Source: Cordylochernes scorpioides
Taxonomy: Eukaryota > Arthropoda > Arachnida > Pseudoscorpiones > Chernetidae
Direction: 5' to 3'
NCBI GenBank assembly: GCA_030710605.1
Contig: CP092877.1
Location: 45,678,406-45,742,405, forward strand
Length of the DNA: 64,000 nt
Translations under genes and position numbers: made by a program
Shown: piece after piece, positions 7,693 to 47,397 of the stretch
How positions within the stretch are numbered: the first letter of the stretch is position 1
How the letters are laid out: each line of letters opens with the position of its first letter
Notes under the pieces: generated by a model
Database searches by the model: none
What the model was told of the DNA's origin: nothing
Seen by the model: only the letters and a program-made list of their open reading frames with translations

Positions 7693-7761
7693 ATAAAAGC
7701 AGGGAAGAATTTATATTATAAGGAATCATTATTTTAGGGTCTTATACTCTATCATATATAT

Positions 7762-22129: not shown

Positions 22130-25100
22130 TTTATCCTCCACCCTTAGCCCTCACAACCTGGGCCTTTTCTCATTCTCCTTTGGCCCCAAACCACTAGGGC
22201 CCTTTCTCCTCCCTTGGCCCCTACCACCGGAGCTCTTTCTCATTCTCTCTCAGCCCCGAACCACTAGGGCTCTTCCACTTCCTCCTTTGACCCCCACCAC
22301 CTGGGCTATTTCTCATTCTTCCTGAGCCCCAAACCACTAGGGCTCTTCCTCCTCCTCCTTTGGCCCCTACCACCTGAGCTCTTTCTCATTCGCTCTCACC
22401 CCCAAACCACTAGGGCTCTTCCTCCTCCTCCTTTGGCCCCCACCACCTGGGCTCTTTCTCATTCTTCCTGAGCCCAAAACCACTAGAGCTCTTCCTCCTC
22501 CTTCCTTGGCCCCCACCACCTGGGCCCTTTCTTAATATCTCTCAGCCCCAAACCACTAGGGCTCTTCCTCCTCCTCCCTTGGCCCCCACTACCTGGGCCT
22601 TTTCTCATTCTTCCTCAGCCCCAAAAACTAGGGCCTTTCCTTCTTCTTTCTTGGCCCCACACCACCTGGGCCTTTTCTCATTCTCCGTTGGCCTCAAATT
22701 ACTAGGGCGCTTCCCCCTCCTCCTTTGGCCCCCACCACTTGGGCCTTTTCTCATTCTCCTTTGGCCCCAAACCACTAGGGCGCTTTCTCCTCCTTCTTTG
22801 GCCCCCACCATCTGGGCCTTTTCTCATTCTCCTTTGGCCTCAAACCACTAGGACTCTTCCTCATCCTTCCTTGGCCCCCACCACCTGGGACTTTTCTCAT
22901 TCTCCTTTGGCCCCAAACCACTAGAGCCCTTCCTTCTCCTCCCTTGGCCCCCACCAACTGGGCTCTTTCTCATTCTCCTTTGGCCACAAACCACTAGGGC
23001 TCTTCCTCCTCCTCCCTAGGCCCCCACCACCTGGGCTCTTTCTCATTCTTCCACAGCCCCAAACCACTAGGGCCCTTCCTTCTCTTTTCTTGGCACCCAC
23101 CACCTGGGCCTTTTCTCATTATCCTTTGGCCCCAAACCACTAGGGCTCTTCCTCTTCCCTTGGCCCTAAACCACCTGGGCCTTTTCAGATTCTCCTTTGG
23201 CCCCAAACCACTAGGGCTCTTCCACCTCCCTTGGCTCCACACTACCTGGGCCTTTTCTCATTCTACTTTGGCCCCAAACCACTAGGGCTCTTCCTCCTCC
23301 CTTGGCCCCCACCACCTGGTCCCTTTCTCATTCTTCCTCAGCCCCAAACCACTAGGGCTCTTCCTCCTCCTCCCTTGGCCCCCACGACCTGGGCCTTTTC
23401 TCATTCTCCTTTGACTTCAAACCACTAGGACTCTTCCTCATCCTTCCTTGGCCTCACACCACCTGGGCCTTTTCTCATTCTCCTTTGGCCCCAAACCACC
23501 AAGGCTCTTCCTCCTCCTCCCTTGGCCCCCACCACCTGGGCCTTTTCTCATTATCCTTTGGCCCCAAACCACTAGGGGTCTTCCTCCTCCCTTGGCCCTA
23601 AACCACCTGGGCCTTTTCAGATTCTCCTTTGGCCCCAAGCCACTTGGGCTCTTCCTCCTCCTCCCTTTGACCCACACCTACTGGGCCTTTTCTCATTCTC
23701 CTTTGGCCCCAAACCACTAGGGCTCTTCCTCATCCTTCCTTGGCCTCACACCACCTGGGCCTTTTCTCATTCTCCTTTGGCCCCAAACCACTAGGGCTCT
23801 TCCTCCTCCCTTGGCCCCCACCACCTGGTCCCTTTCTCATTCTACCTCAGCCCCAAACCACTAGGGCTCTTCCTCCTCCTCCCTTGGCCCCCACCACCTG
23901 GGCCTTTTCTCATTCTCCTTTGGATTCAAACCACTAGGACTCTTCCTCCTCCTTCCTTGGCCCCCACCACCTTGGCCTTTTCTCATTCTCCTTTGACCTC
24001 AAACCGCTAGGACTCTTCCTCATCCTCCCTTGGCTCTCACCACCTGACCCTATTCTCATTCTCCTTTGGCCTCAAACCACTAGGGCTCTTCCTCCTCCTC
24101 CTTCGGACCCACCCCACCTGGACCTTTTCTCATTCTCCTTTGGCCCCAAGCCACTAGGACTCTTCCTCCTCCTCCCTTGGCCCTCACTACCTGGGCCTTT
24201 TCTCATTCTCCTTCGGCCCCAAACCACCTGGGCCTCTCCACCTCCTCCCTTGGCCCCAAACCACCTGGGCCTCTCCACCTCCTCCCTTGGCCCCAAAACA
24301 CCTGGGCCTCTCCACCTCCTCCCTTGGCCCCACTACCTGGGCTCTTTCTCATTCTCCTTTGGCCACAAACCACTAGGGCTCTTCCTCCTCCTCCCTTGGC
24401 CCCCACCACTTGGGCCTTTTCTCATTCTCCTTCGGCCCCAAACCACTAGGACTCTTCCCCCTCCTCCCTTGGCCCCAACCACCTGAGCAGCTTTTTCATT
24501 CCCCTTTGGCCCCAAACCACTAGGGCCCTTCCTCCTCCTCCCTTGGCCCCCACCACCTGGGCCTTTTCTCATTCTCATCTGGCCCCAAACCACTAGGGCC
24601 CTTCCTCCTTCTCCCTTGGCCCCACACTAGAACTCTTCCTCCTCCTTCCTTGGCCCCCACCACCTGGGCCTTTTCTCATTCTCCTTTAGCCTCAAACCAC
24701 AAGGACTGTTCCTCATCTTTCCTTGGCCCCCACCACCTGGGCCTTTTCTCATTCTCCTTTGGCCTCAAACAACTAGGACTCTTCCCCCTCTTCCGTTGGC
24801 CCCCACAACCTGGGCTCTTTTTCATTCTCCTTTGGCTACAAATCACTAGGGCCCTTCCTCCTCCTCCCTTGGCCCCCACCACTTGGGCCTTTTCTTATTT
24901 TCATCTGGCCCCAAACCACTAGGGCCCTTCCTTCTCTTCCCTTGACCCCCACCACCTGGGCCTTTTCTCATTCTCCTTGGCCCCAAACCACTAGGGCGCT
25001 TCCTCCATCTCCCTTGGCCCCACACTAGAACTCTTCCTCCTCCTTCCTTGGCCCCCACTACCTTGGCCTTTTCTCATTCTCCTTTGGCCCCAAACCACTA

Positions 25101-28100
25101 GGGCGCTTTCTCCTCCTTCTTTGGCCCCCACCATCTGGGCCTTTTCTCATTCTCCTTTGGCCTCAAACCACTAGGACTCTTCCTCATCCTTCCTTGGCCC
25201 CAACCACCTGGGCCTTTTCTCATTCTCCTTTGGCCTCAAACCACTAGGACTCTTCCTCCTCCTCCCTTGGCCACCACACCTGGGCTCTTTCTCATTCTTC
25301 CACAGCCCCAAAACACTAGGGCCCTTCCTTCTCCTTTCTTGGCCCCCAACACCTGGCCTTTTCTCATTCTCCTTTGGCCCCAAGTTACTAGGGCTCTTCC
25401 TCCTTCTCCCTTGGACCCACAACACCTGGGCCTTTTCTCATTCTCCTTTGGCCCCAAACCACCTGGGCCTCTCCTCTTTCTCCCTTGGCCCCCACCACCT
25501 GGGACTTTTCTCATTCTCCTTTGGCCCCAAACCACTAGGGCCCTTCCTTCTGCTCCCTTGGCCCCCACCAACTGGGCTCTTTCTCATTCTCCTTTGGCCA
25601 CAAACCACGAGGGCTCTTCCTCCTCCTCCCTTGGCCCCCACCACCTGGGCTCTTTCTCATTCTTCCACAGCCCCAAACCACTAGGGCCCTTCCTTCTCTT
25701 TTCTTGGCCCCCACCACCTGGGGCCTTTTCTCATTATTCTTTGGCCCCAAACCACTAGGGCTCTTCCTCCTCCCTTGGCCCTAAACCACCTGGGCCTTTT
25801 CAGATTCTCTTTTGGTCCCAAGCCACTAGGGCTCTTCCTCCTCCTCCCTTTGAACCACACCAACTGGGCCTTTTCTCATTCTCCTTGGCCCCAAACCACT
25901 AGGGCTCTTCCACCTCCCTTGGCCCCACACCACCTGGGCCTTTTCTCATTCTCCTTTGGGCCCAAACCACTAGGGTTCTTCATCCTCCCTTGGCCCCCAC
26001 CACCTGGTCCCTTTCTCATTCTTCCTCAGCCCCAAACCACTGGGGCTCTTTCTCCTCCCTTGGCCCCCACCACTTGGGCCTTTTCTCATTCACCTTTGGC
26101 CTCAAACCACTAGGAATATTCCTCCTTCTTCCTTGGCCCCCACCACCTGGGCCTTTTCTCAATCTCCTTTGGCCTCAAACCACTAGGACTCTTCCTCCTT
26201 CTTCCTTGGCCCCCACCACCTTGGCCTTTTCTCATTCTCCTTTGACCTCAAACCACTAGGACTCTTCCTCATCCTTCCTTGGCCTCACACCACCTGGGCC
26301 TTTACTCATTCTCCTTTGGCCCCAAACCACCAAAGCTCTTCCTCCTCCTCCCTTTGCTCCTACCACCTAGGCCCTTTCTGATTCTTCCTCAGCCCCAAAT
26401 AACTATGGCCCTTCCTTCTCTTTTCTTGGCCCCCACCACCTGGACCTTTTCTCATTCTGCTTTGGCCTCAGGCCAATGGGAATCTTCCTTCTCCTCCCTA
26501 GGACCCACAACACCTGGGCCTTTTCTCATTCTCTTTTGGCCCCAACCACCTGGGCCTCTCCTCCTTCTTCTTGGCCTCCACCACCTGAGCCTTTTCTCAT
26601 TCTCCTTTGGCCCCAGCCAATAGTGCTCTTCCTCCTCCTACCTTGGCCCCCACCACATGGGCCTTTTCTCATTCTCCTTTGGCCCCAAACCACTAGGGCT
26701 CTTCCTTCTCCTTCCTTGGCCTCCACCACCTGGGCTATTTCTCATTCTCCTTTGGCCCCAAACCATTAGGGCTCTTCCTCCTCCCTTGGCTCCCACCACC
26801 TGACTCTTTTCTCATTCTCCTTTGGCCCCAAACCACTAGGGCTCTACCTCCTCCTCCTTCGGACCCACACCACTTGGGCCTTTTCTCATTCTCCTTTGGC
26901 CCCAAGCCACTAGGGCCCTTCCTTCTCCTCCCTTGGCCCCCACCACCTGGGCTTTTTCTCATTTTCCTTTGACCCCAAACCACTAGAGCTCTTCCTCCTA
27001 CTTTCTTGGCCCGACCTCCTGGGCCATTTCTCTTTCTTCCTCAGCTCCAAACCACTAGGGCCCTTCCTCCTCCTCCCTTGGACCCACACCACATGGGCCG
27101 TTTCTCATTCTCCTTTGGCCCCACACTAGAACTCTTCCTCCTCCTTCCTTGGCCCCCACTACCTTGGCCTTTTCTCATTCTCCTTTGGCCCCAAACCACT
27201 AGGGCGCTTTCTCCTCCTTCTTCGGCCCCCACCATCTGGGCCTTTTCTCATTCTCCATTGGCCTCAAACCACTAGGACTCTTCCTCATCCTTCCTTGGCC
27301 CCAACCACCTGGTCCTTTTCTCATTCTCCTTTGGCCTCAAACCACTAGGACTCTTCCTCCTCCTCCCTTGGCCACCACACCTGGGCTCTTTCTCATTCTT
27401 CCACAGCCCCAAAACACTAGGGCCCTTCCTTCTCCTTTCTTGGCCCCCACCACCTGGCCTTTTCTCATTCTCCTTTGGCCCCAAACCACTAGAGCCCTTC
27501 CTTCTCCTCCCTTGGCCCCCACCAACTGGGCTCTTTCTCATTCTCCTTTGGCCACAGACCACTTGGGCTCTTCCTCCTCCTCCCTAGGCCCCCACCACCT
27601 GGGCTCTTTCTCATTCTTCCACAGCCCCAAACCACTAGGGCCCTTCTTTCTCTTTTCTTGGCACCCACCACCTGGGCCTTTTCTCATTATCCTTTGGCCC
27701 CAAACCACTAGGGCTCTTCCTCCTCCCTTGGCCCTAAACCACCTGGGCCTTTTCAGATTCTCGTTTGGGCCCAAACCACTAGGGCTCTTCCACCTCCCTT
27801 GGCCCCACACTACCTGGGCCTTTTCTCATTCTCCTTTGGCCCCAAACCACTAGGGCTCTTCCTCCTCCCTTGGCCCCCACCACCTGGTCCCTTTCTCATT
27901 CTTCCTCAGCCCCAAACCACTAGGGCTCTTCCTCCTTCTCCCTTGGCCCCCACCACCTGGGCCTTTTCTCATTCTCCTTTGGCTTCAAACCACTAGGATT
28001 CTTCCTCCTCCTTCCTTGGCCCCCACCACCTTGGCCTTTTCTCATTCTCCTTTGACCTCAACCCACTAGGACTCTTCCTCATCCTTCCTTGGCCTCACAC

Positions 28101-30290
28101 CACCTGGGCCTTTTCTCATTCTCCTTTCTCCCCAAACCACCAAGGCTCTTCCTCCTCCTCCCTTGGCCCCCACCAACTTGGCTCTTTCTCATTCTTCCAC
28201 AGCCCCAAACCACTAGGGCCCTTCCTTCTCTTTTCTTGGCCCCCACCACCTGGGCCTTTTCTCATTAATCTTTGGCCCCAAACAACTAGGGCTCTTCCTC
28301 CTCCCTTGGCCCTAAACCACCTGGGCCTTTTCAGATTCTCTTTTGGTCCCAAGCCACTAGGGCTCTTCCTCCTCCTCCCTTTGACCCACACCAACTGGGC
28401 CTTTTCTCATTCTCCTTTGGCCCCAAACCACTAGGGCTCTTCCACCTCCCTTGGCCCCACACCACCTGGGCCTTTTCTCATTCTCCTTTGGGCCCAAACC
28501 ACTAGGGTTCTTCCTCCTCCCTTGGCCCCCACCACCTGGTCCCTTTCTCATTCTTCCTCAGCCCCAAACCACTAGGGCTCTTCCTCCTCCCTTGGCCCCC
28601 ACCACCTGGGCCTTTTCTCATTCTCCTTTGGCCTCAAACCACTAGGACTATTCCTCCTTCTTCCTTGGCCTCCACCACCTGGGCCTTTTCTCAATCTCCT
28701 TTGGCCTCAAACCACTAGGACTCTTCCTCCTTCTTCCTTGGCCCCCACCACCTTGGCCTTTTCTCATTCTCCTTTGACCTCAAACCACTAGGACTCTTCC
28801 TCATCCTTCCTTGGCCTCACACCACCTGGGCCTTTTCTTATTCTCCTTTGGCCCCAAACCACCAAGGCTCTTCCTCCTCCTCCTTTGCTCCTACCACCTA
28901 GGCCCTTTCTCATTCTTCCTCAGCCCCAAATAACTAGGGCCCTTCCTTCTCTTTTCTTGGCCCCCACCACCTGGGCCTTTTCTCATTCTCCTTTGGCCTC
29001 AAGCCAATGGGGATCTTCCTTCTCCTCCCTAGGACCCACAACACCTGGGCCTTTTCTCATTCTCTTTTGGCCCCAACCACCTGGGCCTCTCCTCCTTCTT
29101 CTTGGCCTCCACCACCTGAGCCTTTTCTCATTCTCCTTTGACCCCAAGCCACTAGGGCCCTTCCTTCTCCTCCCTTGGCCCCCACCACCTGGGCCTTTTC
29201 TCATTCTCCTCTGGCCCCAAACCACTAGGGCCCTTCCTCCTTCTCCCTTGGCCCCACACTAGAACTCTTCCTCCTCCTTACTTGGCTCCCACCACCTGGT
29301 CCTTTTCTCATTCTCCTTTAGCCTCAAACCACTAGGAATCTTCCTCATCTTTCCTTGGCCCCCACCACCTGGGCCTTTTCTCATTCTCCTTTGGCCCCAA
29401 GCCAATAGGGATCTTCCTACTCCTCCCTTGGCCCCCACCACCTGAGCCTTTTCTCATTCTCCTTTGACCCCAGCCAATAGTGCTCTTCCTCCTCCTACCT
29501 TGGCCCCCACCACATGGGCCTTTTCTCATTCTCCTTTGGCCCCAAACTACTAGGGCTCTACCTCCTCCTCCCTTGGCCTCCACCACCTGGGCCATTTCTC
29601 ATTCTCCTTTGGCCCCAAACCATTAGGGCTCTTCCTCCTCCCTTGGCACCCACCACCTGACCCTTTTCTCATTCTCCTTTGGCCCCAAACCACTAGGGCT
29701 CTTCCTACTCCTCCTTCAGACCCACACCACCTGGGTCTTTTCTCATTCTCCTTTGGCCCCAAACTATTAGGACTCTTCCCCCTCCTCCCTTGGCCCCCAC
29801 CACCTGGGCCTTTTTTCATTCTCCTCTGGCCCCAAACCACAAAGGTCCTACCTTTTCGTCCCTTGGCCCCCACCACCTGGGCTCTTTTTCATTCTCCTTC
29901 GGCCGCAAACCACTAGGGCCCTTCCTTCTCCTCCCTCGGCCCCCACCACTTGGGCCTTTTCTCATTCTCATCTGGCCCCAAACCACTAGGGCCCTTCCTT
30001 CTCCTCCCTTGACCCCCACCACCTGGGCCTTTTCTCATTCTCCTCTGGCCCCAAACAACTAGGGCCCCCACCTCCTTCTCCTTTGGCCCACACTAGAACT
30101 CTTCCTCCTCCTTCCTTGGCCCCCACTATCTTGGCCTTTTCTCATTCTCCTTTGGCCCCAAACCACTAGGGCGCTTCCTCCTCCTTCTTTGGCCCCCACC
30201 ACCTGGGCCTTTTCTCATTCTCCTTTGGACTTAAACCACTAGGGCGCTTCTTCCTCCTCCCATGGTCCCACACCACCTCTTTCTCCTACT
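22130..30290. repeat. 8.2-kb minisatellite of a 73-bp unit
   Basis: Roughly 110 tandem copies. The consensus reads TTGGCCCCCACCACCTGGGC, CTTTTCTCATTCTCC, TTTGGCCCCAAACCACTAGG, GCTCTTCCTCCTCCTCCC. The two halves share the start TTGGCCCC.A.CCAC, so the unit is an ancient dimer of about 36 bp. The plus strand is strongly pyrimidine-rich. Larger blocks are also duplicated, for example 25039-25350 resembles 27140-27440 and 26275-26590 resembles 28810-29120. Long open frames on both strands (plus SFSFGPKPLG; minus KENEKRPRWWG) are by-products of the repeat. A C-run is at 30313-30325. Confidence 0.97.
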
Positions 30291-30513: not shown

Positions 30514-33399
30514 CAACAACAACAACAATAGCCTTTATTGGGCACACGTGCCATACAGGATTCTTCCGGTAGGACAAAATAAAAAAATAACAAATTAGCA
30601 TCATAGTTATATACAAATATTGGGTATTGACCTCGACCAATTATCGAGTTGGATCCGGTGTCTGTGCTAAATATTTTGATTGAGCTGATTTTCAGTATTT
30701 ATAAAAAGCGAATGCAAAGGGTCTGGATTTTACGACTTTTGCCATTAAAACATAAGGCGAATTGCTATTATAGCCGGTCTCTTCACGAAGAATTTCTCTC
30801 TCTTCTTCCATTGCCGTACAGTAGAACATGTAGTGTGGAAAGTCGAGACTAAATTCACCGTTGCATAAGGGGCATTTTATGGTCTTAGTTTTCAAAAGTG
30901 AAACATGATTAATTCTCTGTACTGCAAAAAGGCTTCTTACTTGTGCAATGATTCTCTTTAAGGTTAGGGGGATATTGTCATTCAGATAGCATTCCATTGT
31001 AGGTGATGAATGAAAGTATTTATAGTGAGAGTAGAGTACTGATTTTCTTATTCTTACATAATCCAGCTGCAAGGACTGATCGGTTGCCGTTCTAATAATT
31101 AGGGGGATGTATCTTTGTAGAATATTGAAGTCTGTACTTCCAACAAGTCATGAGAAGCCGGTGTTATCAAGTAGCTCTGTTATACTTTTTACCAGTCCGA
31201 TATTCTGTTTTGAAGAAATTGAAATGTCCCACAAATGTGCCAAACAAATTGATGGTAGTCTGCTGCCGTCCATTTTCAGAATTCTAGTCCAGAATTTTAA
31301 AGTTAGTTTTTTCACTGTGATATCAAGAGAGTTTCTTCCTGTTTCGGCCCTCAAAATATAGCCCGGAGTATAGCTTGGAAGGCACAGAAAACGTCTGAGA
31401 AAGGTATCCTGGATTCTATCTAAGATTAAGGCTTGATCATTTGCCCAGATTGGAGCCGCATAGAGTAGGACTGTCAAGATCATAGAATCCAACAATCTCA
31501 TACTTGCATGGAAGGATTTGAGCTTGGACTTCAGAATAATCTCCCCCACAGCACCCATCGCAGCCATGGTCCTGCCTCTATAATTTAAGGCAACTTGAGT
31601 GAAAGAAATCGAAGGGGTTAGCGGGTAGCCCAAGTACGTATATTTTGATGTAACACTTAAAGGACTTTGACCCCAGTACCATCTTTCTGAACGCGCCACC
31701 TTTCCTCCATTACGGAAAACCATTATTCTTGACTTGTTTTCGTTCAGAGTTAGTAAGTTCGTTTCTAGATAGGTTTTCAGTATATTGATTTTCAATTGAA
31801 GGTTTATTTTAGAATCACCTATCAAAACAATATCGTCGGCATATAGGAGAAGGTGTATGTTTCCGAAATTGGGTAAGTATATTCCTGACAACCCCGAGTC
31901 ATCAAATATTTTAATCAAATCATTAATAAAGAGTAAGAATAGGCATGGGGATAGTGGGTCACCTTGGAGCACCCCCGAACGAATTTCAATGAATTCAGTG
32001 ATAGAATTGTTCCAACGAACCGCAGCGGTCATGTCTTCATAATAACATTTAATTAAGTTTACAAATCGGTGATTCAGTCCTATTTTGACTAGTTTTGTCC
32101 ATAGCAATGCGTGAGGAACCGTGTCAAAAGCTTTTTTTAAGTTTACGAAGAAGGAGTAACATTTACCTCTTTTCTTCCTTAGGGCAAGTTGGATTACAGA
32201 TGTCAATATGAAAATGTGATCTTGACATGAGTGAGCAGATCTAAAGCCCGCTTGATTCTCTGGGATAATATCATTAGTTTCAATCCATTTGACTAGGCGG
32301 GACCTAAGTATTGCTATAAATAGTTTCGCGAAATTGCTCAGCAGTGAGATTCCGCGGTAGTTGGATGGATTATCAGAATCGCCATTTTTAAAAATCGGAA
32401 AGAGGATGGGAATACAGCTGATCTTAGTATTCTGTTGTATAGATCCTTGAGTAACAGAATATAACTGTGGGGAAGGAGCTTGATTGCTTCGTTCGGTACC
32501 TCGTCGATTCCAGCTGCTTTACAGTTCTTCAAACGCGAGATTTCTTCTGTTATCTCCCTCATTGTAATTTCCGCCAATAAGCCTGTATCCACTGAAAGCG
32601 TGTTTAGTATAGGAAGGATATATTCTGTTGATGTTTCGGATGAGAGTAGTTTGTCGTAAAATTGGTGCCATTCTTGAAGCGATATGTTTCCTTGAATGAA
32701 ACTTATTTTTTTTTATAAATGCTTATTGTTTTCCAAAAGTTTTTAGAGTCATGAGTATTGCTTGATAAATTTACATGCAATGATTGGTAGTATTTTTTCT
32801 TTTTATCTCTAATTAATGCAGCATAGAATTTCTTTTTTGAAATATAGTTAACACGGTCTGTTTCTTTTTTTTATTTCATGTAGATTTTAAGATGGGATTT
32901 AGTATTCTTTTTTGTTAGATAACATTCTCGATCAAACCAGGGCTTTGAATTTGGGTTCAATGTTTTGGATCTTCTCTGCATCCCCGCTTTGCCCATAGTA
33001 TCAATGATTTTATCAGTTAAAAGCCTCATTGTACTATCTATTGAGTGATTCCAATTCAGGTGTATTTCATTTAGTGCCTGCGAGAAAAACTGTGAGTTAT
33101 CATGTGTCCATCTATAACCTGTTAAAGGTGTTGGATTTGTATGTCTCGAGTAATTCACCATCGACTGTAATGAAGTAATTCTGCGATCAGAACCGGGCAC
33201 TATATGGGCAGACAAGGTGATAGGGAGATGGTCCGAATATGGAGAACATTCAACTTGGAAGTTCTCAATTAGATCCAAAAGCAAGGGGGTCACCACAAAG
33301 TAATCCAAGACCGAAGAGCCACGGTCTGAGATGTAAGTAAAATTGCCATTTTGATTTGCCATCGATCTGCCATTTAATATTGTCAGTAAATTATTACTA
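30514..33399 (-). mobile_element. 5'-truncated LINE with (TTG)n tail
   Basis: Flanked by a perfect 13-bp duplication TCTATATTTTCAA (30501-30513 and 33400-33412). The tail is six CAA repeats on the plus strand, preceded by GCCCAATAAAGG on the minus strand. Truncated inside the endonuclease domain at 33399, the typical fate of LINE copies. Confidence 0.9.
30692..33399 (-). pseudogene. LINE ORF2: endonuclease and reverse transcriptase, frameshifted
   Basis: Four open pieces follow each other on the minus strand. 33362-32871 holds the C-terminal half of an apurinic-type endonuclease (SVLDYFVVTPLLL, CSPYSDHLPITLS). 32592-32338 and 32206-31148 hold the reverse transcriptase, with KNCKAAGIDEVPNE, LKKAFDTVPH, GVLQGDPLSPCLFLLFINDL and YADDIVLI. 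31072-30692 ends with a Cys/His cluster CPLCNGEF..FPHYMFYC, as in I/R1/jockey-like LINEs. In an active element the protein nicks target DNA and reverse-transcribes the RNA in place. At least three frameshifts or stops make this copy inactive. The clade is not certain from motifs alone. Confidence 0.88.
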
Positions 33400-33599
33400 T
33401 CTATATTTTCAATTCTACAACATACCTATATCACACATTCTGATATTTAGAAGTATCTTCACACTTTTTATTTAAAATTACATGGAGATTGACTTTTATT
33501 TTTGTGAATATAAAAATTGCTAAATATTGAATATTATTTCAAATTATATGATGTAAAATAATTTAATTTTATCATTAGTATGTCACAATCTAGATGTTT

Positions 33600-34030
33600 A
33601 TGTGTAATATTGAACTTTAGAATATTAAAGAATAAAGTTTCAAAAATTGCGTCCAAAAGGCCTACGTTTCTTGTACTGGCCCAACATCTCACCAGTTAGT
33701 ACTTCGCCAATTTAATCTACCAGACCGCTTCTTAGAGCTCTAATACTATATTGGACGATTTTTCTTATATAGGCAGCACTGAAGGGTGGAATCTCAGAAA
33801 TGGTTTACAAGAAAACTATGAGATTCCACCCTTCAGTGCTGTGTATATAAGCAAAATCGTCCAATACAGTATTAGAGCTCTAAGAAGCGGTCTGGTGGAT
33901 TAAATTGGCAAAACCGCTGAGAGGGTTCACTACAGATGAGTCAAGCCCTCCCAATATATTTTTTCATCGCAGTAAGGGCAGTAGAAGTTTGTATTGTGTA
34001 TAAAAGAAGCATTCGTGCTTAAATCCTTTC
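33600..34030. repeat. Two DR1 copies in inverted (palindromic) arrangement
   Basis: 33667-33790 (minus sense) and 33800-34030 (plus sense) mirror each other around GGGTGGAATCTCA and TGAGATTCCACCC. The plus-sense copy has AGAAGCGGTCTGGTGGATTA, AACCGCTGAGAGGGTTCA, CATCGCAGTAAGGGCAGTAG. It matches 46944-47166 over more than 200 bp. Confidence 0.85.
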
Positions 34031-34199
34031 AGGGTTATATATGTTACATCGTTTTGTAATATTTATATAAACATTAATGGACAGAATCCTATTTACTGGG
34101 GAACACGAGTGGTAGCTAGGTTTTGGTATAAGTGTTATAGTGCATATAATATACATACGTTAACTTTTTCATATATAGAGATTTACATACGTTTTCTTT

Positions 34200-34600
34200 A
34201 TATAGATGAAAATTCGAAACTTTTATAGACGCGTATGGTTCTTTTAAAAATAAAACAATTTCTACTGCCCTTACTGCAATGGAAAAATTAATGGGAAGGC
34301 CTAGCTCATCCGTGTTGATTCCTCCCAGCGGTTTCGCCAGTTTAATCTACCATACCGCTGTTATATTGCATTTTTAGATATTCTTTTTACAGTGATACTG
34401 ATGCAAGACTCTTGGAATGGGTATTTTAGATGAACTATCGACATAAGCTTTGAGGACAGTAGAATTACATACACTTATAAATATATAATATGCTTCGAGC
34501 AATCGCTCTTCCGCAAACTTCAAATTTTGTCTTTAATGTGAACAATTATATTATGCTGCATTAGCGCGCCATCTGTTATATCAAAAATATTTCTTAAATG
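34200..34600 (-). repeat. Dispersed repeat DR1, near-complete copy and a fragment
   Basis: 34206-34360 carries, on the plus strand, AATTCGAAACTTTTATAGAC, CTACTGCCCTTACTGCAATG, then CCCAGCGGTTTCGCCAGTTT and CATACCGCTG. Another start (GCATTAGCGCGCCATCTGTT) is at 34557-34577. Confidence 0.8.
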
Positions 34601-35122
34601 TATATGCATTTATTTTTGTATGTAAAGTCTATTTACAATCAGCACCATCGGTTCGTAACTTTCTACCGTCCACTTGGTAGGACAAACCTTTGGTAACGTA
34701 AATGTCTACAAAGAGGCCCCTGACCCCCAAATATTTCCAAACCCACCCTCACCCCCCTCCCTAGAAGGCTTCCACTGGAGGAGAGGGGGTACCGCCCACG
34801 TTAAACATCACCCCTATAGGGCCCAACCTCCCATTAGCGGCCTATATGATGACATCCTTTATTTATGTCTATGTGAGGCGTGGTGTGGCTTGTAGATAGG
34901 ACGCTGTGATAAATAAACATATATTTTTATAAAATAAATTTACTTTATTAACGCCAAAAATGAGTAGAGGAAAGAAATAGCGGCCGCTTGAAGAAAGCTT
35001 TGTTGCTCGAACGGCGCGTGTGCCAAGAGTCCTGGATGTCACGCGCGCTGGCTGAGGCATGGTATAGCCGTCATATAAATATATATATATGTGAAAAATA
35101 GCACAAAAGTGAATGTACAAAC
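34601..35122. other. Unassigned interval upstream of the hammerhead
   Basis: Contains a C-rich stretch at 34715-34850 and a GC-rich patch at 34980-35060 (GCGGCCGC, ACGCGCGCTGGC). No supported gene. It may belong to the retroelement that carries the ribozyme. Confidence 0.3.
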
Positions 35123-35176
35123 AGCTTTCACCACGCTGAAGAGGGCCAATAGCCCGAAACGCGTACGTGGTTAGCT
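35123..35176 (+). ncRNA. Predicted type I hammerhead ribozyme
   Basis: The plus strand contains all hammerhead core elements in type I order. CUGAAGA is at 35136-35142; stem II is GGGC (35143-35146) with GCCC (35152-35155) closed by loop CAAUA; GAAA is at 35156-35159; the minimal stem III is the self-complementary ACGCGU (35159-35164); A17 is at 35165; stem I is ACCACG (35130-35135) with CGUGGU (35166-35171). Outside stem I a small internal loop is followed by a second helix, AGCU (35123-35126) with AGCU (35173-35176), where tertiary contacts normally form. Cleavage is expected between 35165 and 35166. Such short-stem-III type I ribozymes are known from Penelope-like retroelements. I see no Penelope RT nearby. 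Confidence 0.65.
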
Positions 35177-35464
35177 TTTCTTGATTAATCAAGAGACGGT
35201 ATTTGGCCAATACTGGAATAATTAAAAATCAACGATTAGGTGATATTTATTCCGATAGATGGCGCAAGCTATCAACAACTATCAGTTGCACGATCAGGAA
35301 ATGCCTTTTTTCTTAATATATATTTAAAAAAAAAAAGATTTTTCTGTTGATTTTATTTTTAGGATTAATTAGAGTTATAGAATCATTGATCATTTGCTTG
35401 ATACAGAATTTCCTTAGGTTGTTCAGGATATATGAGTATGTTTGTGATATTGATTATTGCAGCC

Positions 35465-35615
35465 GTGGTAAAAATAATTGACTTTTTCAAGAATCGGGGG
35501 CCATTGGAGCATTTTTTTATCAGAAAAAAAGTGTCCAATGCTGGAATCGAAACCGGGTCGTAGCGGTCAAAACCAACGGTTTAGACGATCCTTCCACCAA
35601 CCCACTAGTTTAGTA
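35465..35615 (-). mobile_element. SINE family DR2, copy with tRNA-like head
   Basis: The minus strand has a B-box-like GGTTTCGATTCC in a GACCCGGTTTCGATTCCAGC context, followed by a body containing TGCTCCAATGGCCCCCGATT. The same body occurs in the copies at 36655-36885 and 44168-44455. Confidence 0.6.
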
Positions 35616-36369: not shown

Positions 36370-36600
36370 TGGATAATATGGTACATTAGCGCGCCTCTGT
36401 TATGAGAATTCGAAACTACTATAGACGCGTAGGATTATTTTTAAAATTTAAAAATTTTCTACTGACCTTACTGGGAGGGTTCACCACTAATGAGCCAGGC
36501 CATCTCTTTAATTTCTTATTGCAGTAAGGGCAGTAGAAAATTGTTATATTTTAAAAAGAATCATACGCATATATAATAGTTTCGAATTCTGACTATGGTT
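36370..36600. repeat. Dispersed repeat DR1, rearranged copy
   Basis: Has ATTAGCGCGCCTCTGTTATG, CTACTATAGACGCGTAGGAT, then directly GGGAGGGTTCACCACTAATG and TTGCAGTAAGGGCAGTAGAA. The central AGCGG...CCGCT block is deleted. Confidence 0.8.
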
Positions 36601-37449: not shown

Positions 37450-37826
37450 GTATAATATATAAATGAGTTTTAAAGATTATAAAAAAAAAATGCATCGGCC
37501 GGGAATCGAACCCGGGGCGCCCGCGTGGCAGGCGAGCATTCTACCACTGAACCAAAAGCAAACGGTGACAGAATTAAGAAAGAATTGTGCATGACACTGA
37601 TAACTGTATATATTAATAATCGAAATTGTACCTTATCATTGGATTTGGTCTTATTACCTTGTTTTTATAATCTCTTATATATAATCTCCTTTATACATAG
37701 ACAGGAAAAGCACATATATTTTAATAATATAAATGAGTTTTAAAATTGTAAAAAAAAATGCATCGGCCGGGAATCGAACCCGGGGCGCCCGCGTGGCAGG
37801 CTAGCAATGACGCTGATAACTGTATA
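37450..37826 (-). repeat. Tandem units carrying a tRNA-Gly-like sequence
   Basis: Two units in tandem (about 37450-37607 and 37608-37826), and a third at 43804-44070 beyond two inserted elements. Shared words: CATTGGATTTGGTCTTATTA, AATATAAATGAGTTTTAAA, an A run, the pseudo-tRNA, and CTGATAACTGTATAT. The second unit has lost part of the pseudo-tRNA (GGCAGGCTAGCAATGACG). Confidence 0.85.
37492..37559 (-). tRNA. tRNA-Gly(GCC)-like pseudogene
   Basis: The minus strand has GTTCAGTGGTAGAATGCTCG, anticodon GCC in a normal loop (CTGCCAC), and GGGTTCGATTCCC, closely matching tRNA-Gly. The 5' acceptor strand is GCTTTTG instead of the complement of CCGATGC, and the two bases linking acceptor and D arm are gone, so it cannot fold as a working tRNA. 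Confidence 0.75.
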
Positions 37827-38616: not shown

Positions 38617-38962
38617 TGTTACATCATGATTAATGGCGTATTTCTTATATTATTTTTAATATATTTGAAATTTAAATTATATATTTATTTATTTTTATAT
38701 AAAATATTCTATGATATTTATTTAAAACAGATTATTTTTTAGATTATCATCATTTGTATTTAGGTACACGTGTGACTTCACTGCTCTCTTTGATGTGAGA
38801 AAAATAAATAGATTATTCTGGAGGATACTTAAAGTAGACTTATCTCATTATTCCCTTATATAAATTTGTAGGATGGTTGAAACACGCTCTGGTAAGATGC
38901 AAGACCCAGCACAGGAGAGAATCATGGCTGAAGAGTCTGCCAAGCCGCAACCTGGTGCAACA
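38617..38962 (+). repeat. Gypsy-2 5' LTR
   Basis: TGTTACATCATG...GGTGCAACA, identical by eye to the 3' LTR. The gag ATG at 38873 is inside it. The primer-binding site would start at TGGTAGAGATGC, two or three bases after the LTR. Confidence 0.93.
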
Positions 38963-40021
38963 ATTGGTAGAGATGCTAGTTCCGACCCAGTTGTCCTGAA
39001 TCCCAACATCGACATCCCCAAGTATGATGGAACGGAAGACCCTCGCCCATGGATTGAATCTCTTGAAGAAATTGGCTTCCTGTACCATTGGGCAGACTAC
39101 ATTATCTCTCGTTATGCCGCCATGAACATGACGGGAAGCGCTAAAACCTGGTTGAATTTACACAAAGCTAGTTTCACGAGCTGGGAAAATATTAAAATCC
39201 GCCTCATTCAGGATTTTTCTTTGGACGCGAATAAAGAAGAACTTAGAATGAAGCTCAACAGAATGCAACACGGGAATGAACCAGCAATCAGGTTCGCGGA
39301 AGACATTCTAGTGTTGTGCAACAAGGTTGACCCCGCAATGGAAGAAGAAACAAAAATTGAACATGTTATTGGAGGACTGAAAAAAGAGTACTCATTCGCG
39401 CTCTACCTGAACCCCCCTAAATCGACCGATGACCTTCTTGTCGTGTGCAAGAAAATGGATTATTTTGAAAAGAAGTATCGGGAACGTGTGGAGAAATCCA
39501 GAAACCTATATAACGGTCCACGCTATTCTAGACACCAACAACAATCGAGGTACGTGCCGCCGACTGCCGCACGAAACTACCAGACCACTTCCAGGCCCCA
39601 AGCCCCTGTTTCCAATAATTACAAGAACGACTCCCCTCCTACTCCCAGACAGTATCGAAACAACTTTCCCCAGCCCTCTACCCCTAGACGTCCTTATAAT
39701 CCTAACTTTGTGCCGAAACCAAACCTTCAGAGAAACACCTACAATAAAAGCCAAGAAGTGAGCAAAAATAGGACGGAAGATGGAAGACCAATCTGCTTTA
39801 AATGTAACAAGCCAGGGCACGTGGCCCGTTATTGTAGGGTCAAGTTTATAAGAATCCTAGAAGAGGATCCAGCAGATACCCAAGAGAAGGTCGAAGAGAA
39901 ATGCCAAATGAATGAAATATCAGAGAAATCAGGACCTCGGCTTTATGCTGATGTATGTCATAGCACACAGACAAATATTCCTACCCGGAATAGATATTCC
40001 GTGTTGGAAGATTTAAACTAA
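38873..40021 (+). CDS. gag: Gypsy-2 Gag
   Basis: 382 residues, intact. The ATG (MVETRSGKMQDPAQER) lies within the 5' LTR, and the frame runs through the LTR end and the primer-binding site. Residues about 50-200 form a retrotransposon capsid region (KYDGTEDPRPWIESLEEIG, SAKTWLNLHKASFTSWENI, LIQDFSLDANKEELRMKL), followed by a Pro/Arg/Asn-rich linker and one CCHC zinc knuckle CFKCNKPGHVARYC near residue 306. The stop TAA directly follows a UUUAAAC slippery heptamer, so Pol is made by -1 frameshifting. The next internal ATG (38897 or 38924) could also be used. Confidence 0.9.
   Translation: MVETRSGKMQDPAQERIMAEESAKPQPGATIGRDASSDPVVLNPNIDIPKYDGTEDPRPWIESLEEIGFLYHWADYIISRYAAMNMTGSAKTWLNLHKASFTSWENIKIRLIQDFSLDANKEELRMKLNRMQHGNEPAIRFAEDILVLCNKVDPAMEEETKIEHVIGGLKKEYSFALYLNPPKSTDDLLVVCKKMDYFEKKYRERVEKSRNLYNGPRYSRHQQQSRYVPPTAARNYQTTSRPQAPVSNNYKNDSPPTPRQYRNNFPQPSTPRRPYNPNFVPKPNLQRNTYNKSQEVSKNRTEDGRPICFKCNKPGHVARYCRVKFIRILEEDPADTQEKVEEKCQMNEISEKSGPRLYADVCHSTQTNIPTRNRYSVLEDLN
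40012..40018 (+). promoter_or_regulatory. Canonical -1 frameshift slippery site UUUAAAC
   Basis: In gag frame the bases read GAT TTA AAC TAA, giving U-UUA-AAC, one of the most efficient eukaryotic/viral slippery heptamers, immediately before the gag stop. The -1 frame continues directly into protease. A downstream stimulatory structure was not established. Confidence 0.85.
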
Positions 40022-43000
40022 GCGTCGCGCCTGAATCTGTCAATCAAAGCAAGTCGACCATAAACGGAATCAAGAAGTTGGACCCTAAATACAAATTAAA
40101 AATTAATGTGGACAAGATAGGGACTTTTGAAGCTTTGGTTGATACAGGTGCTGACCTCTCAGTGGTCGACCTCAGAACGGCCCTCGATACAGGCCATGGT
40201 ATAAGTAAACTCGCAAAAATTTGTGCAGGACCCGATGGAAAAAAATTGGACATGGTAGGAAGTATATTTTTAAATATAAAAATTGATGACGAAACATTAT
40301 CACACAACTTTGTGATATTGAAAACGCATTTACGGACATTAATTCTTGGGAGAGATTTCCTTAAGAAAATGAACGCAAAAATAGATTGTAAGCAAGAAAC
40401 TATAAAATACGATTTGACGAATAACCATGACGAAATCAATTTTGAAATGTTGAAAATAAAGAGTGCCAAGGATTCCATTGTACCGGAATGTTCCATTAAA
40501 TTGATCAAGGCATTGGTAGAAACAGAGGATGGAGAATATATTATCGAGGAGAGCAGCAAAATGTTTCAAACAAATGGACTTCGTCTAGCAAGAAGCTTGA
40601 TCAATGTTATAAATAGGGAAACACACATCTGGATAACTAATCCGTATCCTCGACCGTTAAAAATAATGAAAAACCAAACATTGGCTTTTGGAAGTAGTCC
40701 AGCGAAAATAAATGTGAGTCGAGAAAGAGAGGTAGAAGAGAACGAAGAACCTAGATTCCAAATAAACGAAAATCTTTCACCAAAGGAACAGAAGGAGTTA
40801 AAACAAGTTTTAGAAAGGTATGGAGATCTTTTTTCGTCGAGATTAGGGAGAACCAATTTGTCAAAACATCGGATAGACACAGAAGATGCGAAGCCAATTA
40901 AACACAAGCCTTACCGGGTAAGTGCTAAAGAACGAGATATTATAAAAGAGCAAATTGACGAGATGCTTACAGAGGGCATAATTAGGCCATCTTCTAGCCC
41001 CTGGTCTTTTCCAGTAATATTGGTCAAGAAGCGAGATGGTAAATACAGATTTTGTGTGGACTACAGAAAACTGAATAATGTGACAGTAAAAGATGTCTAT
41101 CCGATCCCTAGAATAGACGAAGTTATGGATACTCTCCAAGGATCTACACACTTCTCAGCAATAGACCTCAAATCTGGATATTGGCAAGTTGAAGTCGAAG
41201 AAAGAGACAAAGAGAAAACAGCTTTCACTACAGCGCATGGATTATATGAATTCAACGTGATGCCTTTTGGACTTTGTAACGCGCCTGCTACCTTTGAGAG
41301 AAATATGGAGAATATGCTTGGAAATCTGAGATGGCAAATTTGTTTGTGTTATCTGGATGATGTTATCATATATAGCCCGGATTTTCCAACGCACCTCAAA
41401 AGACTTGAAGCTGTTTTTAGATGTTTTCGTGAATCTAATTTAAGGTTAAACGACAAAAAATGCCGATTTGCTTTTGAAGAATTGGAGATTCTCGGCTATA
41501 TAACGAGCAAACATGGTATAAAACCCGCGGAACATAACATCAAAGCTGTCAGAAATTTTCCTCGGCCCAAAAAGGTCAAAGAAGTACAATCCTTTTTGGG
41601 AATGTGTTCATATTATAGAAAATTTATCAAAGACTTCTCAAAAATTGCTGACCCTTTGACCAACCTTATAAAAAAAAGTGTATCATTTACCTGGACAGAA
41701 AGACAAGAGGAAGCGTTTCAAACCCTAAAAACAGCACTATTAAGTCCGCCAATTTTAGGTCACTTCAATCCAAATGCACCTACTTATGTTCATACTGATG
41801 CGTCCAACATCGGCATAGGTGCAACACTTGTCCAAGACATCGGTGGTGAAGAGAAGGTGATCTCATATTTGAGTCGTACCCTAAGTAAAGCGGAGCAAAA
41901 TTATTCAACCACTGAAAAAGAATGTCTGGTCAATGTCAAAATTACGACCCTACCTTTATGGAAGACACTTTAAAATAGTAACAGACCATCACGCCTTATG
42001 CTGGCTTAAAAACTTGAAGGATCCAACAGGTCGATTGGCAAGATGGGCATTGAAAATTCAAGAATATGACTTCGATATAATACATAAATCAGGAAAGAAG
42101 CATCTGGACGCCGATGGCTTATCTAGGGGACCCTTACCAGAAACTGATTGGGATGAGGATTTTGAAAGGCTATTTTTAAATCAAATAACAGACGAAGAGG
42201 ATAAGTTTATCGAAAGTGTTAAGAAAAACCTTAATGGAAGCAGGCGATCAATTGCGCAAAACTTTAAAGTAGAAGATGGATGCCTCTTTAAGAAAAACCC
42301 GAACCCTGAAGGCAGGGCGTGGTTGCTTGTGGTTCCAGAGAAGAAAAAGAGAGAAATTATGAAAGAATATCACAATCATATGTCGAATGGCCATCTGGGT
42401 GTCGTCAGAACCATGTACCGAATAAAGAGTAAATACCTTTGGCCATCCATGCTAAAGGATGTCTCAGAGTTCGTTAAGACGTGTCACCTTTGCCAAAGTA
42501 TAAAAGGCTCAAACCAATTACCTTCTGGACTACTACAGCCCATTCCCCCAGCCAACTTTCCTTTCGAAAGAATTGGAATTGACTTTGTTGGTCCATTGCC
42601 ATCTACGAAAAACAGGAAAAAATGGATAATCGTGCTGACGGACTACTACACTAGATATGCAGAAACAAAAGCAGTCTCGGAAGCAACAGTGAAAGAAGTT
42701 TCAAAATTTCTAGTAGAGGATATTTTTCTCCGGCACGGAGCCCCACAATATCTTATTAGTGACAGAGGCTCTCAATTTACCAGTAATTTAATGAAAGAGG
42801 TGATGAAAACGTGCAAGATTAAACATTGCTTCACAACGAGCTATCATCCCCAGACTAATGGATTGACAGAGCGGTTAAATAGAACATTGATCAATATGCT
42901 CAGTATGTATGTGAACACTGATCAGAAGAATTGGGACGAAATACTCCCATTCATCACTCACGCTTACAATACTACAATTCAGGAAACCACAGGATATTCT

Positions 43001-43474
43001 CCCTTTTTCCTGATGTTTGGAAGAGAACCCACGTCTCTTTTGGACGACAGGAATATCTCGGTGGACATTGACAAGGATGATTATGATGAATACATAAAAC
43101 ATCACTTAGACAAAATAAACAGAACAAGAAAATTAGTTATTAACAACACAATAAAGACTCAAGAAAGAATGAAAAAGAACTATGATAAGAAACACACGGA
43201 AAGAAGCTACGAACCAGGAGAATTAGTAGCAGTTTGGACACCAATTAGGAAAATAGGAAAGTGTGAGAAACTACTGAGAAAATATTTTGGCCCATATAGA
43301 ATATTAAAGAAGCTGTCCAACGTAAATTACTTAGTTGAACCAAAAGATAATCCTGGCCAAGACCCATTGATTGTCCATGTCTCAAGAATCAAACCCTATT
43401 TTGAAAGAATTGATGAGGTCAATCACGAGGACTTGACGACCTCTGGAGAGGGGGAAGTGTTACATCATGATTAA
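40012..43474 (+). pseudogene. pol: Gypsy-2 Pol, broken by a small deletion in RNase H
   Basis: Entered from gag by -1 slippage. Domain order: aspartic protease (ALVDTGADLSVVD, about 40135), RT (KRDGKYRFCVDYRKLNNV; YLDDVIIYS, about 41349), RNase H (HTDASNIGIGA, about 41791), integrase zinc finger (HNHMSNGHLG..CHLCQ, 42375-42495) and catalytic core (IGIDFVGPLP, LISDRGSQFTSN, NGLTERLNRTL), then a GPY/F-like C-terminus (YFGPYRILKKL). Near 41930-41945 the frame changes: ECLVNVKITT runs to a stop at 41973, while the continuation starts at SKLRPYLYG in the next frame. Compared with related elements about ten bases are missing here. Apart from this the gene is intact and the LTRs are identical, so the break is recent or a sequencing error. 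Confidence 0.9.
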
Positions 43475-43803: not shown

Positions 43804-44070
43804 ATATTAATAATCCAAATTGTACCTTATCATTGGATTTGGTCTTATTACCTTGTTTTTATAATCTCTTATATATAATCTCCTTTATACATAGACAGGA
43901 AAAGCACATATATTTTAATAATATAAATGAGTTTTAAAAATTGTAAAAAAAAAATGCATCGGCCGGGAATCGAACCCGGGGCTCCCACGTGGCAGGCGAG
44001 CATTCTACCACTGAACCAAAAGCAAACGGTGACAGAATTAAGAACGCATGACGCTGATAACTGTATATAG
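43804..44070 (-). repeat. Third tandem unit with tRNA-Gly-like pseudogene
   Basis: Continues the array interrupted at 37826. The pseudo-tRNA is at 43956-44023 with anticodon GCC, an intact B box and the same damaged acceptor stem as at 37492. Confidence 0.85.
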
Positions 44071-45190: not shown

Positions 45191-45340
45191 TATGAATAGA
45201 ATTAAGAATATCCTCGTCGCTACTTGAGTCCAGTATCAAAAAGAACAGTGGTATTGAGTCAGGATAGAATGTCTGCGTTGTTATATAATAAAGGTTAATA
45301 GTTAATTCTATTAACACAAAGCAATAACGCGCCATATATA

Positions 45341-46759
45341 CACTGCGTGACATTGAAAATGGAACACCAAGAAATAGTGGCCAGAAAGTGATGAAACTCG
45401 GCAGACAGAGAGAGACAGGGACGAACAATAAGTGATCTTTATTTCAAAATGATAGTCATAATACAGAGCGAGAACGGCGTCGGCTTAGTAGCAAGTAGGA
45501 CCACCGCGGACGGCGATGCACGCAGCAACACGTCTAGGTAGAGAGTCAATCAGAGTACGGATGGCATCCTGAGGGATGGCTCTCCATTCCCTCTCAACCA
45601 TTTGCCACAGTTCGTCTTCTGAACGCGGCTGTGGCAAGGCATGCAAACGGCGTCCAATGATGTCCCAGATGTGCTCGATTGGTGAGAGATCAGGAGAGTA
45701 CGGTGGCCAGGGAAGCATCTGTACATCTTGCAGAGCTTGTTGGCTAATGCGAGCAGTGTGCGGTCGGGCGTTATCCTGCTGATAAAGGGCATTGGGTACC
45801 CCCTGAAGGTAGGGGAGTGTCACCGGTCGCAGCACATCATCAACGTATCGTTGGGCCGTCATAGTGCCCTGAATACGAAGTAAAGGTGACCTGGAATCAT
45901 ACGCGATTGCGCCCCAAACCATGATTCCACGTTGTCGCACGGTGGGGCGTTCTACAATTGCTGCCGGATTGGACCTTTCTCCACGTCGACGCCACACCCG
46001 TACACGGCGACTATCACTGGACAAGCAGAAACGCGACTCATCTGAGAACACGACCCTGTGCCATTCCGTCATCCACGTCGATCTAGCCCGGCACCATTCC
46101 AAACGTTGGCGCCTATTTGGTGGGGTCAATGGCAGTCTTCTTAGCGGACGGCATGAGTGCAAGCCATTAGCAACCAATCGACGGGAAATGGTTCTGGTCG
46201 AGATGGAATGATCTAGGGTGTCTTGCACATGTTGCAGGATGGCGGTACAAGTGGCTTGTGGGGCCGCCACTGCTTGTCGAAGGATACGCCGATCCACACG
46301 TGCTGACGTCACTCTGGTTGCACCGACATTCCTATAAATTGCCACATTTCCTTGTTCCAACCATCTTCTCCACAGTCGGTGCACCGTGGACGCACCAAGG
46401 TGTGTATCAGCTGCGATTTGACGTATGGACCAACCTGTCCTTTTCAGTCTGATCACCATGCCCCTCGTAAAAGCGTCTGTCTGCTTGAACTGCCTCCGTT
46501 TACGATGACCTGGCATTCTTTGTTATTACACGTGTCTTTGACACAAGAACAAAATTTCTACAATGATTTTCCTTGAAGAAATAACGACACGAATACTGTC
46601 CTTTCTGCAAGTTCCTTCCCTTATATCTTACTCCATGTGTGCACGAAGAGCTGCGCATTTTACATCATTTGCATAACTCGGTTAGGCGCGTCTACCCTGA
46701 AATTTGCATAATTTTCTGGCCACTATTTCTTGGTGTTCCATTTTCAATGTCACGCAGTG
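45341..46759 (-). mobile_element. Tc1-B: second intact copy of the Tc1-like transposon
   Basis: 1,419 bp between TA dinucleotides (45339-45340 and 46760-46761), with the same 46-bp inverted repeats as Tc1-A. It appears to be inserted near a GCGCGCCAT motif that begins DR1 copies. Confidence 0.95.
45485..46516 (-). CDS. Tc1-like transposase (copy B)
   Basis: 343 residues, uninterrupted. The catalytic triad Asp159, Asp248, Glu281 is in the same places as in copy A and with the same 32-residue spacing between the second Asp and the Glu (QQDNARPH to SPIEHIWD). Differences from copy A include RLKRTG, AAPQATC, GIMVWGA, DDVLRP, EHIWD and RRVAAC. Several of these are the likely ancestral states, because the IMVWGA form is the usual one in Tc1 proteins. 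Binds the terminal repeats, excises and reinserts at TA. Two such intact copies in one window suggest recent activity. Confidence 0.95.
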   Translation of the reverse strand: MPGHRKRRQFKQTDAFTRGMVIRLKRTGWSIRQIAADTHLGASTVHRLWRRWLEQGNVAIYRNVGATRVTSARVDRRILRQAVAAPQATCTAILQHVQDTLDHSISTRTISRRLVANGLHSCRPLRRLPLTPPNRRQRLEWCRARSTWMTEWHRVVFSDESRFCLSSDSRRVRVWRRRGERSNPAAIVERPTVRQRGIMVWGAIAYDSRSPLLRIQGTMTAQRYVDDVLRPVTLPYLQGVPNALYQQDNARPHTARISQQALQDVQMLPWPPYSPDLSPIEHIWDIIGRRLHALPQPRSEDELWQMVEREWRAIPQDAIRTLIDSLPRRVAACIAVRGGPTCY

Positions 46760-46904
46760 TACATATAAAAAGAAATTCGTGCTTTTAAATCCTTTCATTT
46801 TATATATATAGATGGCTCGTTATTTCTTTGTGTTAATTAATGCCTAAGTGACCTTGCTTTATTGTTTGCGGAAGAGCATTGCTCGATGCAAATATTTGAA
46901 TGTA

Positions 46905-47166
46905 ATTCTACTGCCCTGTAAGCTTATGTCCATAGTTTTCTTGAAAACCATTTCTGAGATTCCACCCTTCAGTGCTGCGTATATAATCAGAATCGTCCAA
47001 TACAGTATTAGAGCTCTGAGAAGCGGTCTGGTGGATTAAATTGGCGAAACCGCTGGGAGGGTTCACCACTGATTAGCCAAGCCCTCCCAATATATGTTTT
47101 CATCGCAGTAAGGGCAGTTTTGTATTATGTATAAAAGAAACATTCGTGCTTTTAAATCCTCTCAGT
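46905..47166 (+). repeat. Dispersed repeat DR1, best preserved plus-sense copy
   Basis: Starts with CTACTGCCCTGTAAGCTTAT and ends near CTTTTAAATCCTCTCAG. The core 47022-47088 contains three complementary segment pairs: AGCGGT/ACCGCT, TGGTG/CACCA and TTGGC/GCCAA, plus GGGAGGG/CCCTCCC. Confidence 0.85.
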
Positions 47167-47397
47167 TTTTTTCTATATCTGTGAAGACATCCTCTCTGGT
47201 CTAATACCCTACATCAACTCATATTGCAAGAAATTTTATTTTCATCTAACTGTGGCGTCAATAAACTTACAGTTCACTTACATGTCCCTTAGTTTAGCAC
47301 TTGGTAGATAGACAATTGTGAGTAAGGGTAATTTACTAGAAATTGATTAAAAGAAATTAACAAAAAGGATTTAAGACTATAAAAATCTCCCCTGCTT

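Follow-up and report, generated by a model that had tools for sequence, protein, structure and literature searches.

Insertion anatomy of a hammerhead-bearing, retrozyme-like repeat in Cordylochernes scorpioides points to probable Penelope-type mobilisation

The window, a 64,000-nucleotide stretch of contig CP092877.1 of the pseudoscorpion Cordylochernes scorpioides, carries a conserved type I hammerhead motif. The motif belongs to an interspersed repeat whose 340-bp unit, U, also occurs in tandem. Many U insertions are made of two arms joined head to head, with two fixed outer ends, direct repeats resembling target-site duplications (TSDs) and AT-rich flanks. U insertions thus show the features used to recognise Penelope-like elements. 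As a ribozyme, the hammerhead is ordinary and falls in a known class, and U is a new family within a known kind of element. What is new here is the insertion anatomy of U, which ties a retrozyme-like element to Penelope-like machinery. In the available parts of two published accounts, the mobiliser of animal retrozymes is argued from shared features and co-occurrence (PMC7229834, PMC11722881). Insertion ends offer a direct genomic test of the mobiliser, applicable to any retrozyme-bearing genome.

Results

A type I hammerhead motif at 35123-35176

The motif is on the forward strand. Its stem I consists of a distal helix (35123-35126/35173-35176) and a proximal helix (35130-35135/35166-35171), separated by a UUC/U internal loop located 6 bp above the core. 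The CUGAAGA core (35136-35142) is followed by stem II, GGGC-CAAUA-GCCC (35143-35155), in which a 4-bp helix bears a 5-nt loop; contacts between loop 1 and loop 2 are not readable from the sequence. Then come GAA (35156-35158) and the palindromic stem III ACGCGU (35159-35164), in which A15.1 (35159) and U16.1 (35164) enclose CGCG. H17 would be A35165, and cleavage is predicted at the 35165/35166 bond. CUGANGA, GAAA and U16.1-H17 are found in order with three helices and an open-ended stem I, as in type I hammerheads.

A descriptor composed after the motif had been seen finds one site in the window, and one in 48 Mb of simulated sequence, scanned on both strands and generated by a first-order Markov model of the window outside its satellite. 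The chance expectation is ca 0.001 per window, a single-window figure for a motif picked from among many windows. Rfam reports no hammerhead in the whole window, nor in region 34800-35500 at E<=5. When 81 bases are searched alone, RF02275 (Hammerhead_HH9) is found with 21.6 bits (E 0.0011). Genomic copies of the motif give RF02275 scores of 27.6 bits for one hammerhead each in loci L139, L129 and L144, and of 20.1 bits for a second one in L144. Assignment to the HH9 family was rejected, the window and the copies scored being below its gathering score of 52 bits.

A sequence-only reading of the window had placed a type I hammerhead at these coordinates, with this scissile bond, and had proposed a covariance-model search and a survey of genomic copies as checks. 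The sequence agrees with that placement. Neither the HH9 match, below the gathering score in the 81-base search, nor the 63 copies described below, which retain the core and include compensated changes in the stems, refutes it. Judged from sequence and conservation, the motif is confirmed as a type I hammerhead. The same reading had taken the ribozyme for the minimal kind found in Penelope elements, and this part has to be given up. Minimal Penelope hammerheads are described as usually devoid of non-conserved helix III nucleotides and of loop contacts (PMC7761336, in part), whereas nearly all of the 63 copies have four nucleotides between A15.1 and U16.1. The stem I internal loop also contradicts the minimal assignment. 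U therefore differs from Penelope elements in its ribozyme.

Searches outside the genome gave little. An exact 30-mer has no match in viral contigs. A loose pattern returned at least 120 stretches from these contigs; 2 of them pass a loose hammerhead fold scan, neither with the architecture seen in the window. A 20-base match is present in 2 phage records.

Predicted dimer folding through stem III

Folded alone, the window monomer is predicted to prefer a competing structure (-18.0 kcal/mol versus -17.0 kcal/mol for the hammerhead helices) that hides part of the core. With two strands, the predicted minimum is a double hammerhead at -43.1 kcal/mol, compared with -36.0 kcal/mol for two monomer minima. 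In this predicted double hammerhead, ACGCGU gives 6 bp between the two molecules. The earlier suggestion that a self-complementary 6-nt stem III would favour a dimer is thus in line with the cofold minimum.

Comparable cases are known. In the axolotl hammerhead HHR_Amex1, described in words in the part of PMC7229834 available, a 4-nt palindrome caps a single A-U pair. The window ribozyme resembles the newt and axolotl satellite hammerheads in its one-pair stem III with a palindromic tetraloop, for which an active dimer is expected, and differs from them in sequence. The dimer work on these satellite hammerheads is that of Forster 1988, as cited in PMC7229834 and PMC6155905 (partial texts). Hammerheads of Aedes and Nematostella repeats are likewise interspersed and have a palindromic stem/loop III thought to act in dimers, according to extracts of PMC3088659. 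A perfect 16-nt palindrome, TCTTGATTAATCAAGA, is also present just downstream of the hammerhead (35179-35194) and in most of the copies listed.

Genomic copies and covariation

The hammerhead repeat occurs in many copies in the genome of the window (2.62 Gb, 24 contigs). A genome search returned 2286 candidates, of which 40 were scored. Identity is 93-95% in 38/40 matches other than the window itself, and 38/40 matches start at query position 32, which corresponds to window position 35121. Forty loci were studied (L121-L160, L121 being the window's own copy), sampled with a probe that contained the hammerhead.

Sixty-three hammerheads were aligned, using rows that cover query positions 4-54 and leaving shorter matches out; these copies are relatives rather than independent events. 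The core is nearly invariant across them. Position N7 is T in 37 copies, A in 13, C in 13 and G in none; H17 is C in 40, A in 17, U in 6 and G in none. Loop 1 differs from the reference copy at one place in 40/63 copies, and loop 2 at one place in 10/63. The six columns of stem III (ACGCGU) are kept in 63, 62, 61, 61, 61 and 62 of the 63 rows.

In 5/63 copies (three from L141, one each from L147 and L153), both partners of three base pairs are changed; stem I contains two of these pairs and stem II the third. As the three compensated pairs are confined to one subfamily, they count as one branch. When covariation was computed on the 17 distinct rows, 95.8% of the cells were paired. Nine cells are changed on both sides, versus 1.7 in shuffles; 0/500 shuffles reach this value, and no such cells are seen in six slid controls. 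The number of pairs showing a both-side change (3) is equalled in 72/500 shuffles. Our own covariance model, built from 18 rows, gives the window 89 bits, with the window row itself among the 18. With it, 70 matches were obtained from 41 sources, where the window and L121 represent the same site. The model also detects a second family of different sequence, V, which it finds twice in L139 and also in L130.

U as a retrozyme-like unit

In L128, L142, L146 and L152, same-strand hammerheads are spaced by 338-340 bp, revealing tandem units. The spacing is 350 in the diverged L141 subfamily. The unit taken from L146 is 340 bp long with 40% GC. Metazoan retrozymes are defined by a tandem unit of ca 150-450 bp, a type I hammerhead and a GC content below 50%, and U has all three. 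The high self-pairing expected of a retrozyme circle is also found in the predicted single-unit fold: a one-unit circle has a predicted minimum free energy of -115.4 kcal/mol (z -9.5 versus 100 shuffles).

As far as sequence can tell, the element fits a non-autonomous metazoan retrozyme-like repeat rather than a minimal-hammerhead Penelope element. The idea of a non-autonomous ribozyme-carrying repeat, already put forward in the sequence-only reading, is therefore retained, the 338-340-bp tandem unit fitting published retrozymes. In the portions of PMC7229834 available, metazoan non-LTR retrozymes share with U the type I hammerhead, a unit within 170-400 nt, GC below 50%, TSDs longer than 4 bp, a strongly folded RNA (a predicted fold in the case of U) and a weak palindromic helix III. 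U differs from them in having its own sequence, and is known here from DNA alone. Head-to-head insertions with two fixed outer ends are a feature of U that is absent from the description in these portions.

A six-frame Pfam search of region ~30.3-45.3 kb of the window, with stops read as X, detected no Penelope-type reverse transcriptase (RT) or GIY-YIG frame. This agrees with the earlier statement that no such gene is nearby. The domains detected in this region are all of Ty3/Gypsy type, apart from a single RVT_1 domain judged non-LTR by eye. Filing U as a Penelope-like element was rejected, there being no frame with RT and GIY-YIG in ~30.3-45.3 kb.

Insertion anatomy of U

In 25/40 loci, an inverted arm on the left is joined to a forward arm on the right, the 5' sides meeting mid-insertion at varying places. 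For the statistics on ends and stops, arms were entered by hand from the unit mapping. Two outer sites, A (U197-203) and B (U244-256), were set after looking at the data. Both outer ends are at A or B in 17/25 two-armed loci, as 15 A+B, 2 B+B and 0 A+A (permutation p 0.0023). These figures include L121, L136 and L142, which have spurious outer matches and were added by hand; a script alone counts 12 A+B and 2 B+B. In unit coordinates, the A and B ends are 44-58 nt apart, with 47-48 nt in 10/15. In the other eight two-armed loci (L124, L134, L140, L143, L149, L150, L157 and L159), one or both ends are away from A and B, some of these ends being based on 17-21-nt matches. The scored outer end is at A or B in 14 of the 15 remaining loci, which are one-armed or complex. 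One complex locus, L133, contains a tail-to-tail pair.

Direct matches of at least 9 nt are present at the flanks of 14/17 insertions, compared with 14.7% of 272 cross-paired controls. These TSD-like matches were sought with a slack of 8 nt per end, so that their lengths can include letters of the element. The 20-nt flanks are 84% AT, versus 64% overall. Because some flanks are simple AT repeats, single TSDs are ambiguous, including that of the window; those of L127, L137, L142 and L146 are not simple repeats. Most of the printed ends carry no poly(A) tail, and the window copy is followed by a run of A. Taken together, the marks of Penelope insertions, namely inverted repeats arranged head to head, a one-ended tail and a TSD, are found in 15/17 of the A/B-ended insertions.

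The window's own copy is a small insertion. A short inverted 3'-terminal piece (35089-35119, reverse strand) ends at outer site B; U250-228 match at 35089-35111, and the extension to about 35119 was assigned by eye. The forward arm (35121-35321, forward strand) was mapped to U1-U203 of the 340-bp unit and ends at outer site A. Flank matching gives a candidate TSD, AATATATAT, on the left at 35078-35086 and on the right at 35315-35323. Both copies are ambiguous: the left one is simple AT sequence and the right one overlaps the end of the element.

Arms reach 678 nt, and 11/34 are longer than one unit, which implies that the template is tandem or circular. Uncleaved concatemers fit these long arms as well as circles do. 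The 34 inner stops are spread from U1 to U304 and differ between insertions. Since U1 is an arbitrary start and pieces shorter than 18 nt were dropped, the U1 stops of L128, L137 and L142 probably lie around U326 (14-16-nt gaps). The cleavage site is crossed by 27/34 arms; because the probe contained the hammerhead, one arm per insertion crosses it by selection, and among partner arms the count is ~10/17. No arm stops at U43-47, where ~0.5 would be expected in 34, so that this count is little informative.

Families V and W

Family V is a second hammerhead repeat, of period 319 (a 319-bp unit in L139), with an 8-nt palindromic stem III, ACCAUGGU. Its predicted two-strand minimum is a double hammerhead at -51.6 kcal/mol. 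Copies of V were located in L139 (1627-2446), L130 (2121-2470), L123 (2355-2807) and L155 (5-106). Both two-ended insertions (L139 and L130) have their outer ends at V191-192 and V223-224. A clear TSD is seen in L139 only, with none clear in L130.

A third repeat, W, is abundant and has a 377-bp tandem unit (L129 2588-2965). Neither our covariance model nor a further scan found a hammerhead in W. It is present in the window at 33703-34478, 36471-36568, 46764-47177, 7756-7874, 9838-9967, 589-634 and 45310-45342. W forms a head-to-head insertion in L129, whose ends are separated by ~25 nt and whose flanks share a 14-nt direct match, TCAAAACTTTATAT. Head-to-head insertions of W in L126 and L153 have ends ~21 nt apart.

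The 10-mer ATAGATGGCG is common to U (at U138), V (V131) and W (W200). In the window it is found at 35255-35264 and 10147-10156, two matches versus 0.08 expected. Its candidacy as an enzyme-binding site was rejected, the position relative to the ends being different in W.

Discussion

It is the insertion anatomy of U, and not its ribozyme type, that points to Penelope. According to the parts of PMC3846280 and PMC11167929 available, Penelope-like elements resemble U in that their inverted repeats lie head to head, only one end has a tail, TSDs are close to 9 bp, targets are AT-rich and a hammerhead is located upstream of two adjacent RT start sites. U differs from them by its 340-bp tandem unit and its non-minimal hammerhead, and its ends are 44-58 nt apart whereas the published Penelope tail measures 30-40 bp. 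According to the available text of PMC11167929, the Penelope protein of the anole cuts both strands and extends them, and its reverse transcription starts at two adjacent internal sites, the intervening stretch becoming the tail.

We therefore think it rather likely that U is a retrozyme-like element, cut by its hammerhead and inserted in trans by a Penelope-type RT/GIY-YIG endonuclease. The hammerhead would cleave multimeric U transcripts, probably after pairing into a double hammerhead through the palindromic stem III. By analogy with published retrozymes, the folded unit-length RNA may then be closed into circles by a host ligase. An enzyme acting in trans, presumably of the Penelope type, would nick both strands of an AT-rich site. 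Reverse transcription would have two adjacent start points inside the RNA, at U~200 for one strand and U~250 for the other, and would run 5'-ward for up to about two units. Head-to-head joining of the two cDNAs would leave the target site duplicated. Three points of this scheme are inferred: cleavage, the enzyme involved, and a template that is circular rather than a concatemer. As a hammerhead mutant of Penelope still inserted in vitro (PMC11167929, in part), cleavage need not be required.

A broader proposal is that animal retrozymes parasitise Penelope-like elements. The RT, working in trans, would round the circular RNA from two sites, one per nicked strand, and the cDNAs would be joined head to head. 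The A and B ends would then be the footprint of both starts in one event, a route used by at least three families (U, V and the hammerhead-less W). We regard this proposal as about evenly balanced. The A+B pairing also bears on the Penelope enzymes themselves, whose two start sites may correspond to one per target strand and not to an optional tail. A 2020 paper considers Penelope-like elements strong candidate mobilisers from shared hammerheads, tandem copies and co-occurrence, with LINEs also possible (PMC7229834, in part). A 2024 review, as far as its available text goes, still names both LINEs and Penelope-like elements (PMC11722881). In the literature covered, partly as extracts, we found no insertion-end evidence on the retrozyme mobiliser, though such evidence may be in print.

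The nearest alternative is that U is the pseudo-LTR (pLTR) of an autonomous Penelope-like element, its copies being solo or tandem pLTRs rather than an independent retrozyme. Type I hammerheads are carried by Penelope elements, and pLTRs show the same head-to-head, tail and TSD anatomy (PMC3846280, in part). This reading nevertheless seems unlikely to us: the units of L128, L142, L146 and L152 directly abut at 338-340 bp with nothing between them, and the ribozyme is not of the minimal Penelope kind. Mobilisation of U by a LINE, the inverted arms being the product of twin priming, is improbable. LINEs have been named as possible mobilisers (PMC7229834, in part), and an RT frame of non-LTR appearance is located on the opposite strand at a distance of 2.6 kb (31148-32518). 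The absence of a poly(A) tail from most printed ends counts against them. With twin priming, the inverted piece would have its outer end at an internal position that varies. Both outer ends are instead at fixed sites in 17/25 two-armed loci, 15 of which have one of each.

With outer ends that are inverted copies of one sequence and flanking TSD-like repeats, U could also be read as a DNA transposon of the foldback or MITE-like type, with a hammerhead present by coincidence in its terminal inverted repeats. Cut-and-paste transposition would reproduce a single fixed structure, so the varying inner junctions (34 stops, U1 to U304), with arms reaching 678 nt, count against this reading; the two ends moreover differ by 44-58 nt, and we hold it to be very improbable. 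That the hammerhead pattern is a chance match devoid of ribozyme function has a negligible probability in our view, even though no Rfam match reaches the gathering score. The simulated rate of one match per 48 Mb, the conservation pattern with compensated pairs in the copies and the same architecture in family V, of other sequence, all speak against it. Insertion in trans by a Penelope-type enzyme thus remains the reading that we prefer.

Other features of the window

Several other repeats surround the U copy. An 8-kb satellite of 73-bp units occupies 22127-30278 and has an extreme strand skew (GC skew -0.53 to -0.55). Broken retrotransposon frames with an RVT_1 domain, non-LTR by eye, lie on the reverse strand at 30692-33425. 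Two tRNA-Gly-like sequences in antisense orientation (37491-37559 and 43955-44023, reverse strand) flank a Ty3/Gypsy element (38873-43474). The pair adjoins sequence repeated on both sides and is possibly a relic in LTRs. On the reverse strand, 55455-60371 holds an open frame of 1639 aa that encodes domains of a BEL/Pao retrotransposon; to our knowledge, BEL/Pao elements are confined to animals.
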